A stretch of DNA of 64,000 nt from Candidatus Woesearchaeota archaeon. GTDB lineage: Archaea > Nanobdellota > Nanobdellia > SCGC-AAA011-G17 > UBA489. A program made the position numbers and the translations under genes. Below the pieces are notes generated by a model. That model did no database searches. It worked only from the letters and a program-made list of their open reading frames with translations, and was not told the origin of the DNA. Shown one piece after another: positions 1-64,000 of this stretch (position 1 is its first letter; every line of letters begins with the position of its first letter). Location of the stretch: contig JABIKK010000005.1 of NCBI GenBank assembly GCA_018655015.1, positions 1 through 64,000 on the forward strand. Direction: 5' to 3'.

Positions 1-820
1 ATCTAACCATGGCGCCTGAAGATCTTTCTGATTGTCCTGTTATGGGGTATTTTCTTTCTTGCATACAAGTTAGTATTTCTTGTTGTGTTGCTGGATCCAT
101 ATTTCCAACTTCGTCTATGAATAGTACTCCCTTGTTTGCTTTATGTATCATTCCTGGAACCAATCTTTCATATGCAGGAGTTCCTAATCCTCCGCTTTGT
201 AATGGGTCGTGAAGTACGTCTCCTAAAAGCGCACCCGCATGACTTCCAGTAGCATCAATGAATGGAGCCTTTTCCTTTCTTGAGTTATCTATCAACATCT
301 TGGGAACTTTGATACCCTTTCTTGTTTTCTTGTTTAAATTTAAGAACAAGATAAATATTGCAATAAACATCATTGAGGATATTAATGACGCTGCTGCCAT
401 TATGTCTCCGTATTGTTTTCTAACCCACCAGGGTGAAAAAATTGATATTGCTATTAAGATGTAGAAGAAAATCATTTGACCCTTGAATTGTTTTAAGGAT
501 TCTATTTTGAATTTGTTAACATGTGTTTTTCCTTCTCCTCTGGGAAATATCCTTATTATTGGACTGTGTTCATCAGAAGGATTGTCAAAGGAAAGAATGT
601 CATCCAATTCCCCTTTGGGAATAAGCTCTGCTAATGCTTGACCAGTTAGAGATTTACCCGTTCCGGGTTCTCCAATAAGTAAAACATTTCTTCTTTGTCT
701 TGCGGCTTTTTTTATAATGTCAACTGCTTCTTCTTGGCCAACAATTTGATTTACCGTAGATGGACTTGTCTTTATATCTTTAGTTGTTTTAAATTTTTTA
801 ACAGATTTGGGACTAACCAT
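1..820 (-). CDS. lonB: Archaeal LonB-type ATP-dependent protease, C-terminus runs off window
   Basis: Minus-strand reading from ATG at 820: MVSPKSVKKF...IVGQEEAVDIIKKAARQRRNVLLIGEPGTGKSLTGQALAE (Walker A), TM insertion typical of archaeal LonB, then GVLFIDEVGNMDPATQQEIL (Walker B). Absent from ORF track because it is truncated by the window edge. Confidence 0.93.
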   Translation of the reverse strand, partial: MVSPKSVKKFKTTKDIKTSPSTVNQIVGQEEAVDIIKKAARQRRNVLLIGEPGTGKSLTGQALAELIPKGELDDILSFDNPSDEHSPIIRIFPRGEGKTHVNKFKIESLKQFKGQMIFFYILIAISIFSPWWVRKQYGDIMAAASLISSMMFIAIFILFLNLNKKTRKGIKVPKMLIDNSRKEKAPFIDATGSHAGALLGDVLHDPLQSGGLGTPAYERLVPGMIHKANKGVLFIDEVGNMDPATQQEILTCMQERKYPITGQSERSSGAMVR

Positions 821-845: not shown

Positions 846-1109
846 TTAAATTATATCTTCTTCAGATACAACTACAAAGTCTCCAATTGCTATAACTGAG
901 GAGTATGGAATTAGAAGGCTGTTGTTTGAATCTCTTTCCAAATCAAGAGCTTCTGTGTATGTTGTTGCGTTTTTTAGAACTATTTGCATTAATTCACCAG
1001 TTCTTACTTCGAAACTGATGTTGCCTACTTCTCCAAATCTTTTACCTGATTTAGTTACAACTGTTTTTCCTAAAAGTTGTTTTGAGTAGTTTTTTTCTTC
1101 TTCTGCCAT
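846..1109 (-). CDS. PRC-barrel domain protein
   Basis: 87 aa; GKTVVTKSGKRFGEVGNISFEVRTGELMQIVLK resembles PRC-barrel beta-barrel fold. Confidence 0.75.
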   Translation of the reverse strand: MAEEEKNYSKQLLGKTVVTKSGKRFGEVGNISFEVRTGELMQIVLKNATTYTEALDLERDSNNSLLIPYSSVIAIGDFVVVSEEDII

Positions 1110-1172: not shown

Positions 1173-1820
1173 TTAAATCCTTGATAAAACTGAATCTACA
1201 AAAGACTTTGGAAATGTAGATAGTAAAGAGATTGCTTTAATCTGTGGAGAGATGGTTATCCTTTTTTCTCGATGTTCATTTAAAAAGATGGATAATTTAT
1301 CCTTATCTTGAAGGTTGTTTAAGATATTTAGGATTGAGAGAGTGAATGCTGAATCTACGTCTTCTTGAGATTCACTATTAAGGGATTGAGTTATTTCTTC
1401 CTTTGAGAACTCTACTCCTTCGGAGATGGAAATGTTATCTGATAAGAGATTATCCAAGGATTGGTCTGAGAATGTGAATATTTTGAAGTATTCATCGCTA
1501 ATATCCGTTTGATCACTAGTGACCTCTTCCTTTAGGAGTAATAATTCTTCTTTTGTGAACGAAGTCGGTTTGGATTCTAAGAAATCTATAGATATTGCAG
1601 ATTTGTAATCTTCATCTTTTTCATAAACAAATAATGAGTTTGATTTTTGGAGTTGACTTAGACTCTTGGCATCTGAAATAACGACTGCCGCAACTATGAG
1701 TGATATAATAAAGAATACAATGAATACAATGAATACGGCCTTAGTTATGCTTTTGATAATAAAGAAGATTATTAGGAAAATGATTATTGAGAATAAAAAT
1801 ATCCAAAACAATATAGTCAT
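1173..1820 (-). CDS. Hypothetical membrane protein (N-terminal TM hairpin, acidic C-terminal region)
   Basis: 215 aa ORF with two strongly hydrophobic N-terminal segments; no antisense competitor. Confidence 0.6.
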   Translation of the reverse strand: MTILFWIFLFSIIIFLIIFFIIKSITKAVFIVFIVFFIISLIVAAVVISDAKSLSQLQKSNSLFVYEKDEDYKSAISIDFLESKPTSFTKEELLLLKEEVTSDQTDISDEYFKIFTFSDQSLDNLLSDNISISEGVEFSKEEITQSLNSESQEDVDSAFTLSILNILNNLQDKDKLSIFLNEHREKRITISPQIKAISLLSTFPKSFVDSVLSRI

Positions 1821-1860: not shown

Positions 1861-2190
1861 GGTGTCACACCTTGATTTCTTATGGAATTAAAATTAAGAG
1901 GAAAAACATTTGGAATGCCACGTAAAAGCTTAAACACAAAGAAGAAGGTCTGAAACTATTGTTTATTTATTTTATTTATTTTTATTTATAAGATTAATTA
2001 TATTATATTATATTATATTATAATCTTTATTTTATTTGTTCTATTTTTTTATTAATTTATTTTTTAGTATTTTATTTTCGAGAATTTTGGATTTTGTTTA
2101 TAAATAATTTTTCCAATGGAAACTATGGTGTGGGGTTTTGTTTGGCATCACAGATATCCTTAAATAAAATCTGCGGTTTCATCAGGATAA
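1861..2190. other. oriC: Candidate replication origin: AT-rich unwinding region flanked by inverted ORB-like motifs
   Basis: 2111-2135 TTCCAATGGAAACTATGGTGTGGGG matches the archaeal ORB pattern (TTCCAnTGGAAAC...GGGG). 1866-1886 CACACCTTGATTTCTTATGGA is an imperfect inverted copy. Between them are TTTAT repeats and (ATTAT)n. Immediately upstream of orc1/cdc6. Confidence 0.7.
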
Positions 2191-3408
2191 ATGGTTGATG
2201 TCAAGAATTTTCTGAGAGATTATGCGAAAAAAGAGAGTTTATTCAAAAATAAAAAAGTTTTACAGTCTAATTATACGCCAGATAAAGTTCCTTATAGGGA
2301 GGATCAAATCAACCTTTTAGCAGGCATTCTCGCACCTTCTTTGCGTATGGAAAGGCCAAGTAACATTTTTCTTTATGGTAAGACTGGAACTGGCAAAACT
2401 CTTGCAATTAAACATGTGACTGATCAAATTTTAGAGGTTGCTAAAGAAAGCAATCTTAATCTTAGGGTTATTTACCTTAATTGTAAACTGAAAAGGATTG
2501 CTGATACTGAATATAGGCTAATAGCTCAGATATCAAGAGAATTAGGGCAGGACATCCCTCCTACAGGGTTGCCTACTGATGAAGTATACAAGATATTTAC
2601 TAAGATTCTTGAAGAAAATAAAATGTTGTTGCTTTTGGTTTTAGATGAAATTGACGAGGTTGTTAAGAATACAGGTGATAAAATTTTATACAATCTAACA
2701 AGGTTAAATTCTGAATTAAAAAATAGTGAGATATCTATTGTAGGTATTAGTAATGATTTAATGTTTATTGATCAAGTTGATCCCCGTGTTAAAAGTAGTT
2801 TAAGTGAGGAAGAACTTGTTTTCCCCCCCTACAACGCAATACAATTACAAAAAATATTGAAAGAGAGATCTGATATCTCCTTTGAGAAAAGTGTTATCGG
2901 GGAAGGAGTAATTGAAAAATGTGCAGCTTATGCTGCTAAAGAACATGGTGATGCACGGAGAGCTTTAGAATTGTTAAGAGTTGCTGGTGAGTTGGCTGAG
3001 CGGAATAATTCTGAAAAGATTGCAGTTAAATTTATAGATCAAGCAGAAGAAAAAATTGAAAGAGATCGCGTTATTGATATTGTTTCTACACAACCCAAAC
3101 AATTCAAAATAACATTGTACAGTATTTTACTGTTCTCGAACTTATGCTCCAAAAATGGAAATTCCCAAGATATATACACTGGTGATATTTACGAGTTGTA
3201 TAAAGAAAATTGCTTAAAATGCGGCACTAAACCCCTAACGCAAAGACGAATTGGCGATATTATAGCTGAGTTAGATATGTTAGGAATAATTAATGCTAGA
3301 GTGATAAGCAAAGGGAGGTATGGTAGGACTAGAAGGATTACGTTGGGAGTTCCAGAAAACATTACAAAAAAGATTAACGATATGTTGAAGGAAGGACTTG
3401 GGTTATGA
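2191..3408 (+). CDS. orc1/cdc6: Orc1/Cdc6 replication initiator
   Basis: 405 aa; YREDQINLLAGILAPSLRMERPSNIFLYGKTGTGKTLAIKHV (Walker A), LLLLVLDEIDEV (Walker B), C-terminal winged helix. Confidence 0.95.
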   Translation: MVDVKNFLRDYAKKESLFKNKKVLQSNYTPDKVPYREDQINLLAGILAPSLRMERPSNIFLYGKTGTGKTLAIKHVTDQILEVAKESNLNLRVIYLNCKLKRIADTEYRLIAQISRELGQDIPPTGLPTDEVYKIFTKILEENKMLLLLVLDEIDEVVKNTGDKILYNLTRLNSELKNSEISIVGISNDLMFIDQVDPRVKSSLSEEELVFPPYNAIQLQKILKERSDISFEKSVIGEGVIEKCAAYAAKEHGDARRALELLRVAGELAERNNSEKIAVKFIDQAEEKIERDRVIDIVSTQPKQFKITLYSILLFSNLCSKNGNSQDIYTGDIYELYKENCLKCGTKPLTQRRIGDIIAELDMLGIINARVISKGRYGRTRRITLGVPENITKKINDMLKEGLGL

Positions 3409-5108
3409 CACAGAAAATAAATAAGGAAGTTTTAGAGTCTTTTCTAGAAAAAGGTTTTTTATTAGCGCCCGATATTTTAGACGAAGAGGGTTTCGATTCA
3501 GATTTTTTGAACTTAGTTGACACAAGAATATTATCAAAAGATAAACCTGTTGTTATTGGATTAGATATTTACAAAGGAGTTTCTAGAAAGGGTGTTTCTG
3601 GCATTAATTGGATTGAATTTGAGAAGAGTAGAGTTTTGCATGAGAAGGGAAAAACAAATAGAGTTTATTCTTCATTTTTAGAATTAATTTTTGATGAACC
3701 TAAGGAAGAACAGGGATACACAATAATAAAAAAAGAAGAACCTGTCGAAGAAGTTATTGAGGAGGTTGTGGATGAAGTTCCTGTTAAGGTTGAGAAAAAT
3801 CAAACTAGCTTGTTGGATGCAGGTTATCCTCTGAAAGTTGTAACTAGTTATGGTGATGAATCCAAACTTAGAGAAGTTAAAGATTTTGTTAATCATTACA
3901 AAAGTAGGTATAATTTTTTGAGAAAGCTTGTTGCTGGAAGACAAGAAATGCAGAATGTTATTTCTATTAATCGTGCTGCACCCAAGGAACGTGGGGACAA
4001 GGTCGCTCTTATTGGTTTAGTGTATGACAAGAGAATTACTAAGAAAGGTAATACTATGATCACATTAGAGGATACAACTGGGACAATTAGGGTTATTTTT
4101 GATGCCAATAAAGCAAAAGGTATCGAATATTTGTGTAATGATGAATTAATTGGTGTTGTTGGAACTGTTAATGAAAATTTTATGTTCGCAACTGAATTAA
4201 TTTTTCCAGATATACCTGAAAAAATCGAGACTAAATTGTTTAATGAAGAAGTTTGTGGTGCGTTTATTTCTGATGTTCATGTTGGAAGTACTTGGTTTAT
4301 TGAAGATAAGTTTTTAGAATTAATTGATTGGTTGAATGGAAAACACAAGGATCCTAAGATGGTTGAGCTGAGTAAGAAAATCAAATTTTTGTTTATTACT
4401 GGCGATATGGTTGATGGTGTAGGAATTTATCCCAATCAAGATAAAGAATTAACAATAAAGAGTATCAGAGGACAGTATGATCGCTGTACCGAATTTATTA
4501 AGATGATCCGAGAGGATATTCAAATTATTTTATGTCCTGGCAACCATGATGCGAGAAGAATTGCCGAACCACAACCACCTTTAGATGTTTATGCAGAGTC
4601 TTTAAAGCAAATAAAAAATTTAACGTTGGTTTCTAATCCCGCGATGGTTAATGTTCTGGGGAAAGAAGGTTTTGAAGGGTTCAACATTTTACTTTATCAT
4701 GGATATAGCTATGATTACTATGCGGCTAATATAGGCCCAATTATGCAGGACGGTGGCTATGATCGTGGTGATTTAATAATGAAGTTTTTGTTAAAGAAAA
4801 GACACCTTGCTCCAGTTCATACTTCTACCTTGTTTGTTCCAAACGGTAAAGAAGATTATTTAGTTATTGATCAAGTTCCAGATATTTTTGTTTCTGGACA
4901 TATTCACAAAAGTTCAGTTTCGAAGTATAAGGGTGTTACAAATATTATGGGGTCTTGTTGGCAATATAAAACAGATTTCCAAGAAAAAGTTGGACATCAT
5001 CCAGAGTACTGTAAAGTTCCGATTTTTAATTTTGGAACAGGCGATACAACAATTATAGACTTTGCACCAGAGAATAAAGCTCTCAATAAAGAAAATGGAA
5101 ATGAATGA
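3405..5108 (+). CDS. polB (DP1): DNA polymerase D small subunit DP1 (calcineurin-like phosphoesterase/OB fold)
   Basis: 567 aa; ISDVHVGS, FITGDMVDGVGIYP, CPGNHDARR, SGHIHKSS motifs; directly downstream of orc1/cdc6 as in Thermococcales. Confidence 0.95.
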   Translation: MTQKINKEVLESFLEKGFLLAPDILDEEGFDSDFLNLVDTRILSKDKPVVIGLDIYKGVSRKGVSGINWIEFEKSRVLHEKGKTNRVYSSFLELIFDEPKEEQGYTIIKKEEPVEEVIEEVVDEVPVKVEKNQTSLLDAGYPLKVVTSYGDESKLREVKDFVNHYKSRYNFLRKLVAGRQEMQNVISINRAAPKERGDKVALIGLVYDKRITKKGNTMITLEDTTGTIRVIFDANKAKGIEYLCNDELIGVVGTVNENFMFATELIFPDIPEKIETKLFNEEVCGAFISDVHVGSTWFIEDKFLELIDWLNGKHKDPKMVELSKKIKFLFITGDMVDGVGIYPNQDKELTIKSIRGQYDRCTEFIKMIREDIQIILCPGNHDARRIAEPQPPLDVYAESLKQIKNLTLVSNPAMVNVLGKEGFEGFNILLYHGYSYDYYAANIGPIMQDGGYDRGDLIMKFLLKKRHLAPVHTSTLFVPNGKEDYLVIDQVPDIFVSGHIHKSSVSKYKGVTNIMGSCWQYKTDFQEKVGHHPEYCKVPIFNFGTGDTTIIDFAPENKALNKENGNE

Positions 5109-8100
5109 AGAAACAAAAAATTACCTTGAAGGTATTGATTCGGAAGTGAACATAGTACTTGCTTTAGCAAATAGATGTAGGGCTAAAGGTCTAGATCCCG
5201 AGGATCATGTTGAAATTATGCTTGCAAAGAATATGGCTGAAAGAGTTGTTGGAATTATTAGTGTTGTTGCGCCCGAGTTGAAAGGTTCTGGGTTAGTTGA
5301 AAGGATACATGAACTTGAAGAAAAATACGGTATGCAGGATTGGAGAATTGCTTTAACTGTTGCACTCGAAACTGCTCAAGAAAAATTTGTTAAATTTGAT
5401 GATAAGGTTAAAGCCATGGAAATAGGCTTAAGGGTAGGTATGGCTTATATTACCAATGGTGTTGTTTCTTCCCCATTAGAGGGATTTACGAAATTAGAAG
5501 TTAAAAAAAGACGGGATGGTAAGGAGTACTTAGCATTGTTTTATTCTGGCCCTATTAGAAGTGCTGGTGGAACTGCAAGTAGCGTTTCTTTGATTATAGG
5601 CGATTACATTAGGAAGAATATGGGGTATGAACCTTATGATCCAGATGAAACAGAAGTAAGAAGAATGTGCACAGAACTAACAGATTACCATGAGAGGATT
5701 ACTAATTTACAATATTTTCCTTCTGATGAAGAAATAACTTTTCTGATTAACAATATTCCAATCCAAATTGATGGCGACCCAAGTGAAAAAATTGAAGTAA
5801 GTAATTACAAACGTCTTGATAGAATTGAAACGGATAGAATCAGGAATGGTGTTTGTTTAGTAACTGGCGAAGGAATTGCCCAGAAAGCTCCAAAACTTTG
5901 GAAGCAATTATCTGTTTGGGGAAAAGACTTTGGTTTAGAGAACTGGAATTTCTTGAAAGATTTTGTTGATTTACAAAAGAATGTAAAAGCAAAAAAGGAA
6001 GTTAAACCCGAAGGTGAAAAAGATGAGAAAGTAAAACCTGATTACACTTTTATCAAAGATATTGTGGCAGGAAGACCTGTGTTCACACATCCAATGGCTA
6101 AAGGTGGTTTTAGGCTAAGGTATGGCAGGACTAGGGTTTCTGGCTTTTCTGTAGATTCACTACACTCTGCAACAATGGCTGTTTTACAAGACTATATTGC
6201 GATAGGTACACAGTTGAAAGTTGAACGCCCTGGGAAAAGTACAGTTATTACCGTTTGTGATTCAATTGAGGGTCCAATTGTAAAATTAGAAGATGGATCT
6301 GTTTGTAAATTAGACTCAGTAGAAAAAGCAAAAGCTGTGAGGGACAAAATTAAAGAAATTATCTACTTAGGGGATATTCTAATTTGTTATGGTGATTTTT
6401 TTAATAGAGGTCATGGACTAGTTCCTGTTGGTTATTGTGAAGAGTGGTGGGCGCAAGAAGTTTTAGAGGCTGCTGAGAAAAAAGGTAGTGGTTATTTTGA
6501 AGAGTTATTGGAAAAAATAAAAAAAGATTATTTCTGTGAAATTTCTTTAGAAGAAGCAATAAATATTTCTGAAACTTTTAGTGTAGCATTGCATCCAAAA
6601 TATACATATAATTTTTCTGCGATAAGTATGGATGAATTAAAAGAAGTTAGTGAATGGGTTAAGAGTGGAAGTTTTTTAGAGGCTAAAGTCGTTTTACCTT
6701 TTAATGATAAAATTACTGCTAAAAGATCACTTGAATTATTAGGGGTACCCCACAAAGTTGTTAGTAATGAATATGTTGTAGTGTTTGGGGTGGATTCTAA
6801 GTTGTTGAAGTTTTATTTTGATAATCTGGATTTTAGCAAAGGAAGCGTCCTGGAGGCTTTAAACAAGAAGTTTCCAATCGCAGATAAGTTGGGAACAACA
6901 GTTGGTGCAAGAATGGGTAGGCCTGAAAAAGCAAAGATGAGAAAGTTAACTGGAAGCCCCCACGTATTATTTCCTGTTGGGGAAGAAGGGGGAAGATTGA
7001 GATCTTTTCAATGTGCAGTTGATGTTGGAAAAGTTAAGAATCAATTTCCAGTATACTCTTGTGAGTGTGGTAATGAATCTGTGTACCCTACTTGTGAAAA
7101 GTGTGGTAAACCTACCAAGAAAAAATATCTTTGTAGAAAGTGTGGAATGACAGAGGTTAAGTGTCATCCCGAAGAGATTACTGAACATAAAATGTGGGAT
7201 TTAGAAATTGGTAAATACTTTGATAGTGCTGTAAAACTTTCAGGTATAAACCGAAGTATGCTACCTGATTTAGTTAAGGGTGTGAGGGGGACTAGTAACA
7301 AGAACCACGTGCCTGAGAATTTAGTTAAGGGTTTGTTAAGAGCTAAACATAAAATATATGTGAACAAGGATGGAACGACAAGATATGATATGACTGAATT
7401 ACCAGTTACACATTTTAAAGCGAAAGAAATTGGTACAAGTGTAGAACAATTGAAAAAATTAGGTTACCTTAAAGATATTTCTGGAAATGATTTGGTTGAT
7501 GAAGATCAAGTTTTAGAATTAAAAATACAGGATGTAATTATGCCCGCACCCCAGGGAGCACCCGAAGAAGGCTCAGATGCTGTTTTTACAAGGGTTACAC
7601 AATTTGTTGATGAATTACTTACTAATGTTTATGGCGAAAAAGGATTTTACAATGTTAAGTCTAAAAATGATTTAGTGGGTCAATTAGTTCTTGCTTTAGC
7701 ACCCCATATAAGTTCCGGTGCAGTTGGAAGAATTATTGGCTTTAGCAATGCTCAAGGAATTTTAGCTCATCCTTACTTTCATAGTATGGTAAGAAGGGAT
7801 TGTGATGGTGATGAACTTTGTTGTATTATGCTAGTTGATGCAATGTTGAATTTTTCAAGACAGTACTTGCCTGCACATCGTGGGAGTACACAAGATGCAC
7901 CTTTGGTTCTTACAAGTATTTTGACTCCTGCGGAAGTTGACGACATGGTTTTTGATATGGATGTTGCATGGAAATATCCCTTGGAGTTGTATAGGGCAGC
8001 ACAAAATTGTGGAAAGCCATGGGATATTAAAATTGATCAGTTAGGTAGTAGGTTGGGAACAGAAAGACAATACTTCGATATGGGTTATACTCATAAGGTG

Positions 8101-8553
8101 AGCGATTTCAACGCGGCTGTTAATTGTAGCGCGTATAAGACATTGCCAACTATGGATGAAAAGGTTCAAGGTCAGATGGTTGTTGCACAACAAGTTAGAG
8201 CAGTTAAAACTGATGATGTTGCAAGATTAGTTATTGAAAGACATTTTATTCGGGATATCAAGGGTAATTTGAGGAAGTTTAGTATGCAACAGTTTAGGTG
8301 TGTTAAATGTAATGAAAAGTATCGTAGACCTCCGATTGCAGGGCACTGTACCCAAGGAAAGTGTTTCGGGAAGATTATATTTACAATTTCTCAAGGGAGC
8401 ATTGTGAAGTATTTGGAGCCTAGTTTGAAATTAGCTGAGCAGTTTAAGATTTCTTCTTACTTACAAGAAACTTTAGATATAACCAAGATGAGGGTCGAAA
8501 GTATTTTTGGTAAGACTCCCGAAAAGCAAGAAGGACTTGTTAAGTTTTTTTAA
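5095..8553 (+). CDS. polC (DP2): DNA polymerase D large subunit DP2
   Basis: YSGPIRSAGGTASSVSLIIGDYIRKNMGYEPYDPDETEVRR, DCDGDELCCIMLVDAMLNFSRQYLPAHRGSTQDAPLVLT, zinc-ribbon motifs; likely ATG at 5095, overlapping DP1. No intein insertion seen. Confidence 0.95.
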   Translation: MEMNEETKNYLEGIDSEVNIVLALANRCRAKGLDPEDHVEIMLAKNMAERVVGIISVVAPELKGSGLVERIHELEEKYGMQDWRIALTVALETAQEKFVKFDDKVKAMEIGLRVGMAYITNGVVSSPLEGFTKLEVKKRRDGKEYLALFYSGPIRSAGGTASSVSLIIGDYIRKNMGYEPYDPDETEVRRMCTELTDYHERITNLQYFPSDEEITFLINNIPIQIDGDPSEKIEVSNYKRLDRIETDRIRNGVCLVTGEGIAQKAPKLWKQLSVWGKDFGLENWNFLKDFVDLQKNVKAKKEVKPEGEKDEKVKPDYTFIKDIVAGRPVFTHPMAKGGFRLRYGRTRVSGFSVDSLHSATMAVLQDYIAIGTQLKVERPGKSTVITVCDSIEGPIVKLEDGSVCKLDSVEKAKAVRDKIKEIIYLGDILICYGDFFNRGHGLVPVGYCEEWWAQEVLEAAEKKGSGYFEELLEKIKKDYFCEISLEEAINISETFSVALHPKYTYNFSAISMDELKEVSEWVKSGSFLEAKVVLPFNDKITAKRSLELLGVPHKVVSNEYVVVFGVDSKLLKFYFDNLDFSKGSVLEALNKKFPIADKLGTTVGARMGRPEKAKMRKLTGSPHVLFPVGEEGGRLRSFQCAVDVGKVKNQFPVYSCECGNESVYPTCEKCGKPTKKKYLCRKCGMTEVKCHPEEITEHKMWDLEIGKYFDSAVKLSGINRSMLPDLVKGVRGTSNKNHVPENLVKGLLRAKHKIYVNKDGTTRYDMTELPVTHFKAKEIGTSVEQLKKLGYLKDISGNDLVDEDQVLELKIQDVIMPAPQGAPEEGSDAVFTRVTQFVDELLTNVYGEKGFYNVKSKNDLVGQLVLALAPHISSGAVGRIIGFSNAQGILAHPYFHSMVRRDCDGDELCCIMLVDAMLNFSRQYLPAHRGSTQDAPLVLTSILTPAEVDDMVFDMDVAWKYPLELYRAAQNCGKPWDIKIDQLGSRLGTERQYFDMGYTHKVSDFNAAVNCSAYKTLPTMDEKVQGQMVVAQQVRAVKTDDVARLVIERHFIRDIKGNLRKFSMQQFRCVKCNEKYRRPPIAGHCTQGKCFGKIIFTISQGSIVKYLEPSLKLAEQFKISSYLQETLDITKMRVESIFGKTPEKQEGLVKFF

Positions 8554-63554: not shown

Positions 63555-64000
63555 ATGGCAAAAGGTAAAAAAAATAAGAAGAATAGCACAAAAGGAATTG
63601 CTAAACCGAAGCCTAAGATTACTAAGAAGCAAGCAACCGTTAGAAAGAAGAAGAAAAAATGGTTCGGCATTATTGCTCCTAAGGAATTTAATAATAAGCT
63701 AATCGGAGAGACTTTTGCTGCAGAGCCTGGAGAAATGGTTGGAAGGGCTTTAAAAGTTAATTTAATGAATTTGTATAATGACTATAAGAGGCAGGGCGTT
63801 AATCTTAGATTGAAAGTTGTTTCTGTAAATGATGATAATGCTGTTTGCAAGACTGTTGGTTATGAATTATTAAAATCGCATTCAAGAAGGGCTGTTAGAA
63901 AAGGAACAGATAAGATGGACGATTCTTTTGTAGCAGAATCCAAAGATGGGGCTAAATCAAGAGTTAAGCCAATGATAATTACAAGGCATAGAGTTTCAGA
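63555..64000 (+). CDS. rps3ae: 30S ribosomal protein S3Ae, truncated by window edge
   Basis: KKWFGIIAPKEFNNKLIGETFAAEPGEMVGRALKVNLMNLYNDYKRQGVNLRLKVV. Confidence 0.93.
   Translation, partial: MAKGKKNKKNSTKGIAKPKPKITKKQATVRKKKKKWFGIIAPKEFNNKLIGETFAAEPGEMVGRALKVNLMNLYNDYKRQGVNLRLKVVSVNDDNAVCKTVGYELLKSHSRRAVRKGTDKMDDSFVAESKDGAKSRVKPMIITRHRVS

Follow-up and report, generated by a model that had tools for sequence, protein, structure and literature searches.

A probable Orc1-dependent replication origin upstream of orc1 in a woesearchaeal genome without a local reversal of strand asymmetry

Gene context of the orc1 upstream region

The analysed window is a stretch of 64,000 nucleotides from the genome of a Candidatus Woesearchaeota archaeon (G000), a 16-contig draft of 700,797 bp that is about 92% complete. 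Near the left end of the window, a pair of sites resembling the archaeal origin recognition box (ORB) and an AT-rich stretch occupy the gap between two divergent genes, one at 1820 on the minus strand and the other, orc1, at 2191 on the plus strand (Table 1). The preliminary description had placed this region directly upstream of orc1/cdc6-DP1-DP2, and this is borne out by the gene and Pfam calls. The flanking genes also point away from it, as had been claimed: the leftward genes are on the minus strand, and orc1, DP1 and DP2 are on the plus strand. The gene order LonB-PRC-origin-orc1 is common to this genome and the relative G002, and orc1 orthologues within the order have 52-89% identity. 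An Rfam search of the window yielded two tRNAs and nothing else.

Table 1. Features of the orc1 locus (positions in the window)
Feature	Position	Strand	Remarks
LonB-type ATPase/protease, N-terminal part	2..820	-	Pfam; the rest is on contig C1, at its left end
PRC-barrel protein	846..1109	-	Pfam; lagging-like composition
215-aa protein without Pfam match	1173..1820	-	nearest gene leftward; lagging-like composition
ORB-L, inverted ORB-like site TTCCATAAGAAATCAAGGTGTGACAC	1862..1887	-	G-rich end leftward, away from the AT-rich element
Candidate duplex unwinding element (AT-rich stretch)	1956..2110	.	91.6% AT; unwinding predicted
ORB-R, direct ORB-like site TTCCAATGGAAACTATGGTGTGGGGT	2111..2136	+	G-rich end toward orc1; motif score, conservation
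Candidate orc1 TATA box CTTAAATAAA	2159..2168	+	about -32 to -23 from the ATG; read from the sequence
orc1/cdc6 initiator gene, 405 aa	2191..3408	+	Pfam Cdc6_lid, Cdc6_C
Weaker ORB-like site inside orc1	2327..2352	-	21.8 bits, in the range of shuffled-genome maxima
DP1, DNA polymerase D small subunit	3405..5108	+	Pfam DNA_pol_E_B, Metallophos
DP2, DNA polymerase D large subunit	5101..8553	+	Pfam PolC_DP2 domains

The contig of the window (C16) runs on into contig C1. A single LonB gene is split between the two contigs with about six residues missing; with the LonB of G002 as the reference, residues 4-281 match C16 and residues 288-622 match C1. Contigs C1 and C13 overlap by 95 bp. The joined scaffold C13+rc(C1)+C16 is 270 kb long, with orc1 at 207.9 kb. 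An identical 45-bp stretch is present in the same orientation near the right ends of C16 (beyond position 64000, the end of the window) and C5; it is likely to be a repeat at which the assembly broke.

Assembly breaks at most about 220 bp from the orc1 start were observed in three of the five genus members (L003, L004 and L005, from G004, G003 and G001, respectively), where they fall within or beside the AT-rich element. The putative origin is thus frequently missing from draft genomes.

ORB-like sites and the AT-rich element

The sequence TTCCAATGGAAACTATGGTGTGGGG, previously claimed to fit the ORB layout at 2111-2135, is indeed present there on the plus strand. The exact core of ORB-R, TTCCANTGGAAAC, has a single occurrence in the 700,797-bp genome, at this locus. 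The imperfect reverse copy claimed upstream is also real and corresponds to ORB-L, within which the CACACC...GGAA reported earlier occupies positions 1866-1887. The two sites are identical at 16 of 22 positions, and the orc1 start lies 55 bp past ORB-R.

A 26-bp ORB motif model was trained on the orc1-upstream regions of 38 order-level relatives, the genus of the window being excluded. With this held-out model, ORB-R (31.3 bits) and ORB-L (29.7 bits) rank second and third among 1.4 million positions. The first rank is taken by a site at C1:2103 (33.3 bits), and the fourth and fifth by the site inside orc1 (C16:2327, minus strand, 21.8 bits) and a site at C1:2429 (13.6 bits). The maxima of the same motif model in three Markov-1 genomes were 19-23 bits, and thus only the top three matches exceed the chance level. 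All five best matches are located less than 5 kb from orc1 on the joined contigs. A check for stronger ORB clusters elsewhere, suggested in the preliminary description, revealed none in the available sequence, the only comparable sites being the two on C1, which after contig joining lie about 4.3 and 4.6 kb to the left of orc1 and are oriented like ORB-L. As the draft is only about 92% complete, a second origin could sit in the missing part.

The C1 sites (2103-2128 and 2429-2454, L189) share GGAAATGAAGGGGT, and each is followed by tandem CAACAATCATCAACA-type repeats. They may serve as additional initiator sites or fork barriers, or else belong to a dispersed repeat. A similar lone site, scoring 23.4 bits, was observed in G012 about 7 kb upstream of orc1. 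The weaker site inside orc1 is present in four of the five genus members and absent from other genera; it probably reflects coding constraint.

The pair of inverted and direct ORBs was found in all 40 order-level genomes with sufficient upstream DNA, a count that is partly by construction, as 38 of the 40 form the training set and one site of each kind was picked per genome. Held out among the 40 were the genome considered here and G002. Relative to the orc1 start, the inverted ORB is located at -288 to -565 and the direct ORB at -69 to -171 in these 40 genomes. Nine further untrained genomes, more distant or separately fetched, were also considered: the pair is present in six (L207, L211, L213, L214, L215, L217) and absent in three, among them ones titled Altiarchaeota, Desulfurococcales and Tiamatella. 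In the single contigs G014 and G038 and in 400 kb of G012, all three from the training set, the pair constitutes the two best matches.

The best 150-bp window of the AT-rich stretch contains 138 A/T positions, which is the genome maximum; this value is reached by eight of 698,333 genome windows, every one at this locus. The five ATTAT units described between the sites were located at 1997-2021. Single-strand folding of the element was no better than that of shuffles. A TATA-like box near -30 of orc1 is common among the relatives, and here it is separated from the end of ORB-R by about 20 bp.

Strand asymmetry in the genome and its relatives

Four-fold codon sites were used to part gene-strand from chromosome-strand composition. 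The G/T-rich strand was treated as leading, an assumption borrowed from bacteria. With the sign set contig by contig, 93-96% of the genes in this genome agree with the sign of their contig. The log-likelihood ratios are lagging-like for the three frames leftward of the site (-11.4, -7.1 and -12.7) and leading-like for orc1, DP1 and DP2 (+23, +27 and +52). In the 270-kb scaffold, 13 of 13 20-kb bins, left and right of orc1 alike, have positive GC and negative AT asymmetry, 96% of the genes agree in sign, and the best change point is remote from orc1. Two joined chains, together about 540 kb of the unclosed genome, have a single sign in all 107 5-kb bins. The skew inflection near 2.0 kb, which the preliminary description had named as its own test, is absent, the asymmetry being uniform for about 206 kb leftward and 62 kb rightward of the site. 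The reversal of strand asymmetry expected of a bidirectionally firing origin does not occur at this site. A skew reversal does not define oriC as a sequence element, and many archaea have no clear skew. The keto skew of the 1-3 kb flanks (about 55 loci) was dropped, since A-rich coding strands and spurious ORFs confound it.

In G014, represented by one contig of 736.7 kb, each of the 37 20-kb bins has the same AT sign, 35 of the 37 share one GC sign, and no overall reversal of asymmetry was found along the contig. The best change point lies about 13 kb from orc1 and is a step in strength only (permutation p 0.003). A linear-gradient sawtooth fit placed the jump at 352 kb, away from orc1, and was not taken as support. 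An exact prefix/suffix check revealed no terminal overlap or repeat at the ends of G014. An open frame runs across the joined ends, which speaks weakly for a circle.

The best change point in 400 kb of G012 is at most 7 kb from orc1. It comes from a full-sequence, gene-level test, in favour of which a break near 127-147 kb derived from sparse K-run counts was set aside. In G126, the best breakpoint adjoins orc1. The two sides of orc1 differ in G166 (p 0.0007) and G184 (p 0.003), with the best breakpoints 95 kb and 186 kb away, respectively. The best breakpoint of G147 is about 40 kb off orc1, no significant step at orc1 was observed in G206 (p 0.15), and no significant change point was found in G038, where the skew is weak. 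The asymmetry is one-sided both left and right of orc1 in G161 and G183; G184, G185 and G094 appear bidirectional or nearly symmetric. Chromosome-wide asymmetry of one strand may be common in the class. The sign relative to the direction of orc1 is the same in this genome and G012 and opposite in G014 and G161, and thus the asymmetry does not fix the direction of the fork.

K-run positions are those among the matches listed, with one strand lost; G166 was analysed again using the complementary pattern. G/T runs are strongly strand-unequal in G161, G166, G183, G126 and G206, which are nearly closed genomes from this class (17 versus 130, for example), and are even between strands in others (for example 77 versus 78).

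The putative origin and its mode of firing

The region 1862-2136 is very probably a chromosomal replication origin used by Orc1, with forks probably leaving it unequally. The preliminary description had proposed an origin beside orc1, for which the usual picture would be two diverging forks with a skew inflection at about 2.0 kb. An Orc1-dependent origin is strongly supported by the ranks under the held-out motif model, the conserved pair, its uniqueness, the AT-rich element and the adjacency of the initiator gene; the diverging forks with an inflection are not supported in this genome. Several features of an orc1-adjacent oriC were found here: a position next to the initiator, at least two ORBs above chance, an AT-rich region and an arrangement conserved together with the gene. 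The change points in G012 (within 7 kb of orc1), G014 (about 13 kb away) and G126 (beside it) also speak for an origin. On the other hand, there is no sign change here, the breakpoints of G184 and G166 are distant, G206 has no significant step, and the best breakpoint of G147 is about 40 kb off.

Orc1, the product of the adjoining gene, would bind both inverted ORBs and help to open the AT-rich element between them, where the MCM helicase would be loaded. As ORB-R immediately precedes the TATA box of orc1, it is likely that Orc1 also regulates its own gene. Since the site is not a point of skew inflection, the forks probably depart unequally, perhaps mainly one way.

The locus is very probably an orc1-adjacent archaeal oriC, one apparently undescribed in this lineage. 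Origins of this type are known from Pyrococcus (oriC), Sulfolobus (oriC1) and haloarchaea (oriC1) (review PMC4010727). As in these, the initiator gene is directly preceded by an AT-rich region with putative ORBs at its flanks, which are inverted and each G-tailed. However, the reviewed origins replicate bidirectionally, whereas the site described here has no skew inflection; it also differs in having one inverted and one direct putative ORB at stereotyped distances, and two extra ORB-like sites about 4.3-4.6 kb off. No description of ORBs in DPANN archaea was found in the open literature.

Our tentative preference is for a real origin that fires mainly one way, with one strand leading nearly everywhere; either a single fork covers most of the circle, or the origin and the terminus adjoin. 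The single sign of the 13 and 107 bins in this genome points to such firing, as do the uniformity of G014 in 37 (AT) and 35 (GC) of 37 bins and the one-sided asymmetry around orc1 in G161 and G183. The same signature has been called one-directional in Ca. Chazhemtobacterium aquaticus Ch65 and related Microgenomates (PMC7143001), for which this mode was proposed and which likewise have a small genome, with a single sign of asymmetry throughout the chromosome as seen here over about 540 kb. However, these are bacteria with GC asymmetry only and no Orc1/ORB origin, whereas here both GC and AT are involved; the direction of replication is a proposal in both cases. In Pseudoalteromonas chromids, the signature is backed by read depth, by which the direction was demonstrated (PMC7858055). 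There, too, the skew lacks two bidirectional inflections and the mode varies between relatives, but the chromids are bacterial secondary replicons, whereas here it is the main chromosome, with the direction deduced from sequence. Against one-way firing, the polarity relative to orc1 is inconsistent among relatives, three of them (G184, G185, G094) look bidirectional or nearly symmetric, and the circular form of this genome and G014 is a presumption.

It is unlikely that this is an ordinary bidirectional origin whose segment has recently been transferred to a place midway along an old replication arm, hiding the inflection. Composition trails rearrangement, so a recent move would keep the skew uniform around the new site, and relatives with asymmetry steps at orc1 do exist. 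However, as the LonB-PRC-origin-orc1 order is common to G002, the entire segment would have had to move, and the explanation would not account for G014, where an overall reversal is missing throughout.

A role of the ORBs mainly as an operator for repression of the orc1 promoter by Orc1, with replication starting elsewhere, is improbable. The short distance between ORB-R and the TATA box and the lack of a skew inflection would fit, but the far inverted ORB, which is kept 290-565 bp upstream, the AT-rich element and the location of change points close to orc1 (G012, G014 and G126) would be left unexplained, and the available sequence contains no second ORB cluster. It is very improbable that the chromosome is linear or copied by a single fork from its end, with the orc1 locus as a secondary or dormant origin: uniform polarity fits one fork on a linear molecule too, but a dormant origin should not show such conservation, and the ends of G014 have no terminal overlap or repeat by the exact check and, when joined, are spanned by the open frame that weakly favours a circle.

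If the origin fires mainly one way, loading of Orc1/MCM at the paired ORBs must be able to release or retain one fork only. Possibly, some DPANN archaea replicate their main chromosome mostly one-directionally from a canonical Orc1/ORB origin, with relatives in the class ranging to bidirectional; we put this forward with reserve. No report of an archaeal main chromosome copied in one direction was found in the open literature, and PMC7111523 mentions one DPANN archaeon whose skew has a normal peak. Skew-based detection of origins can fail in such genomes, as can growth-rate estimates presuming two symmetric arms. The uncultured lineage gains a precise and conserved candidate origin, and a motif usable for origin finding class-wide.

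The genome encodes a second Cdc6 paralogue at G000:C13:60690-61769 (L081:3691-4770), which is divergent, at about 36% identity, and has no good ORB match nearby. One such divergent paralogue is present in most genomes of the class.
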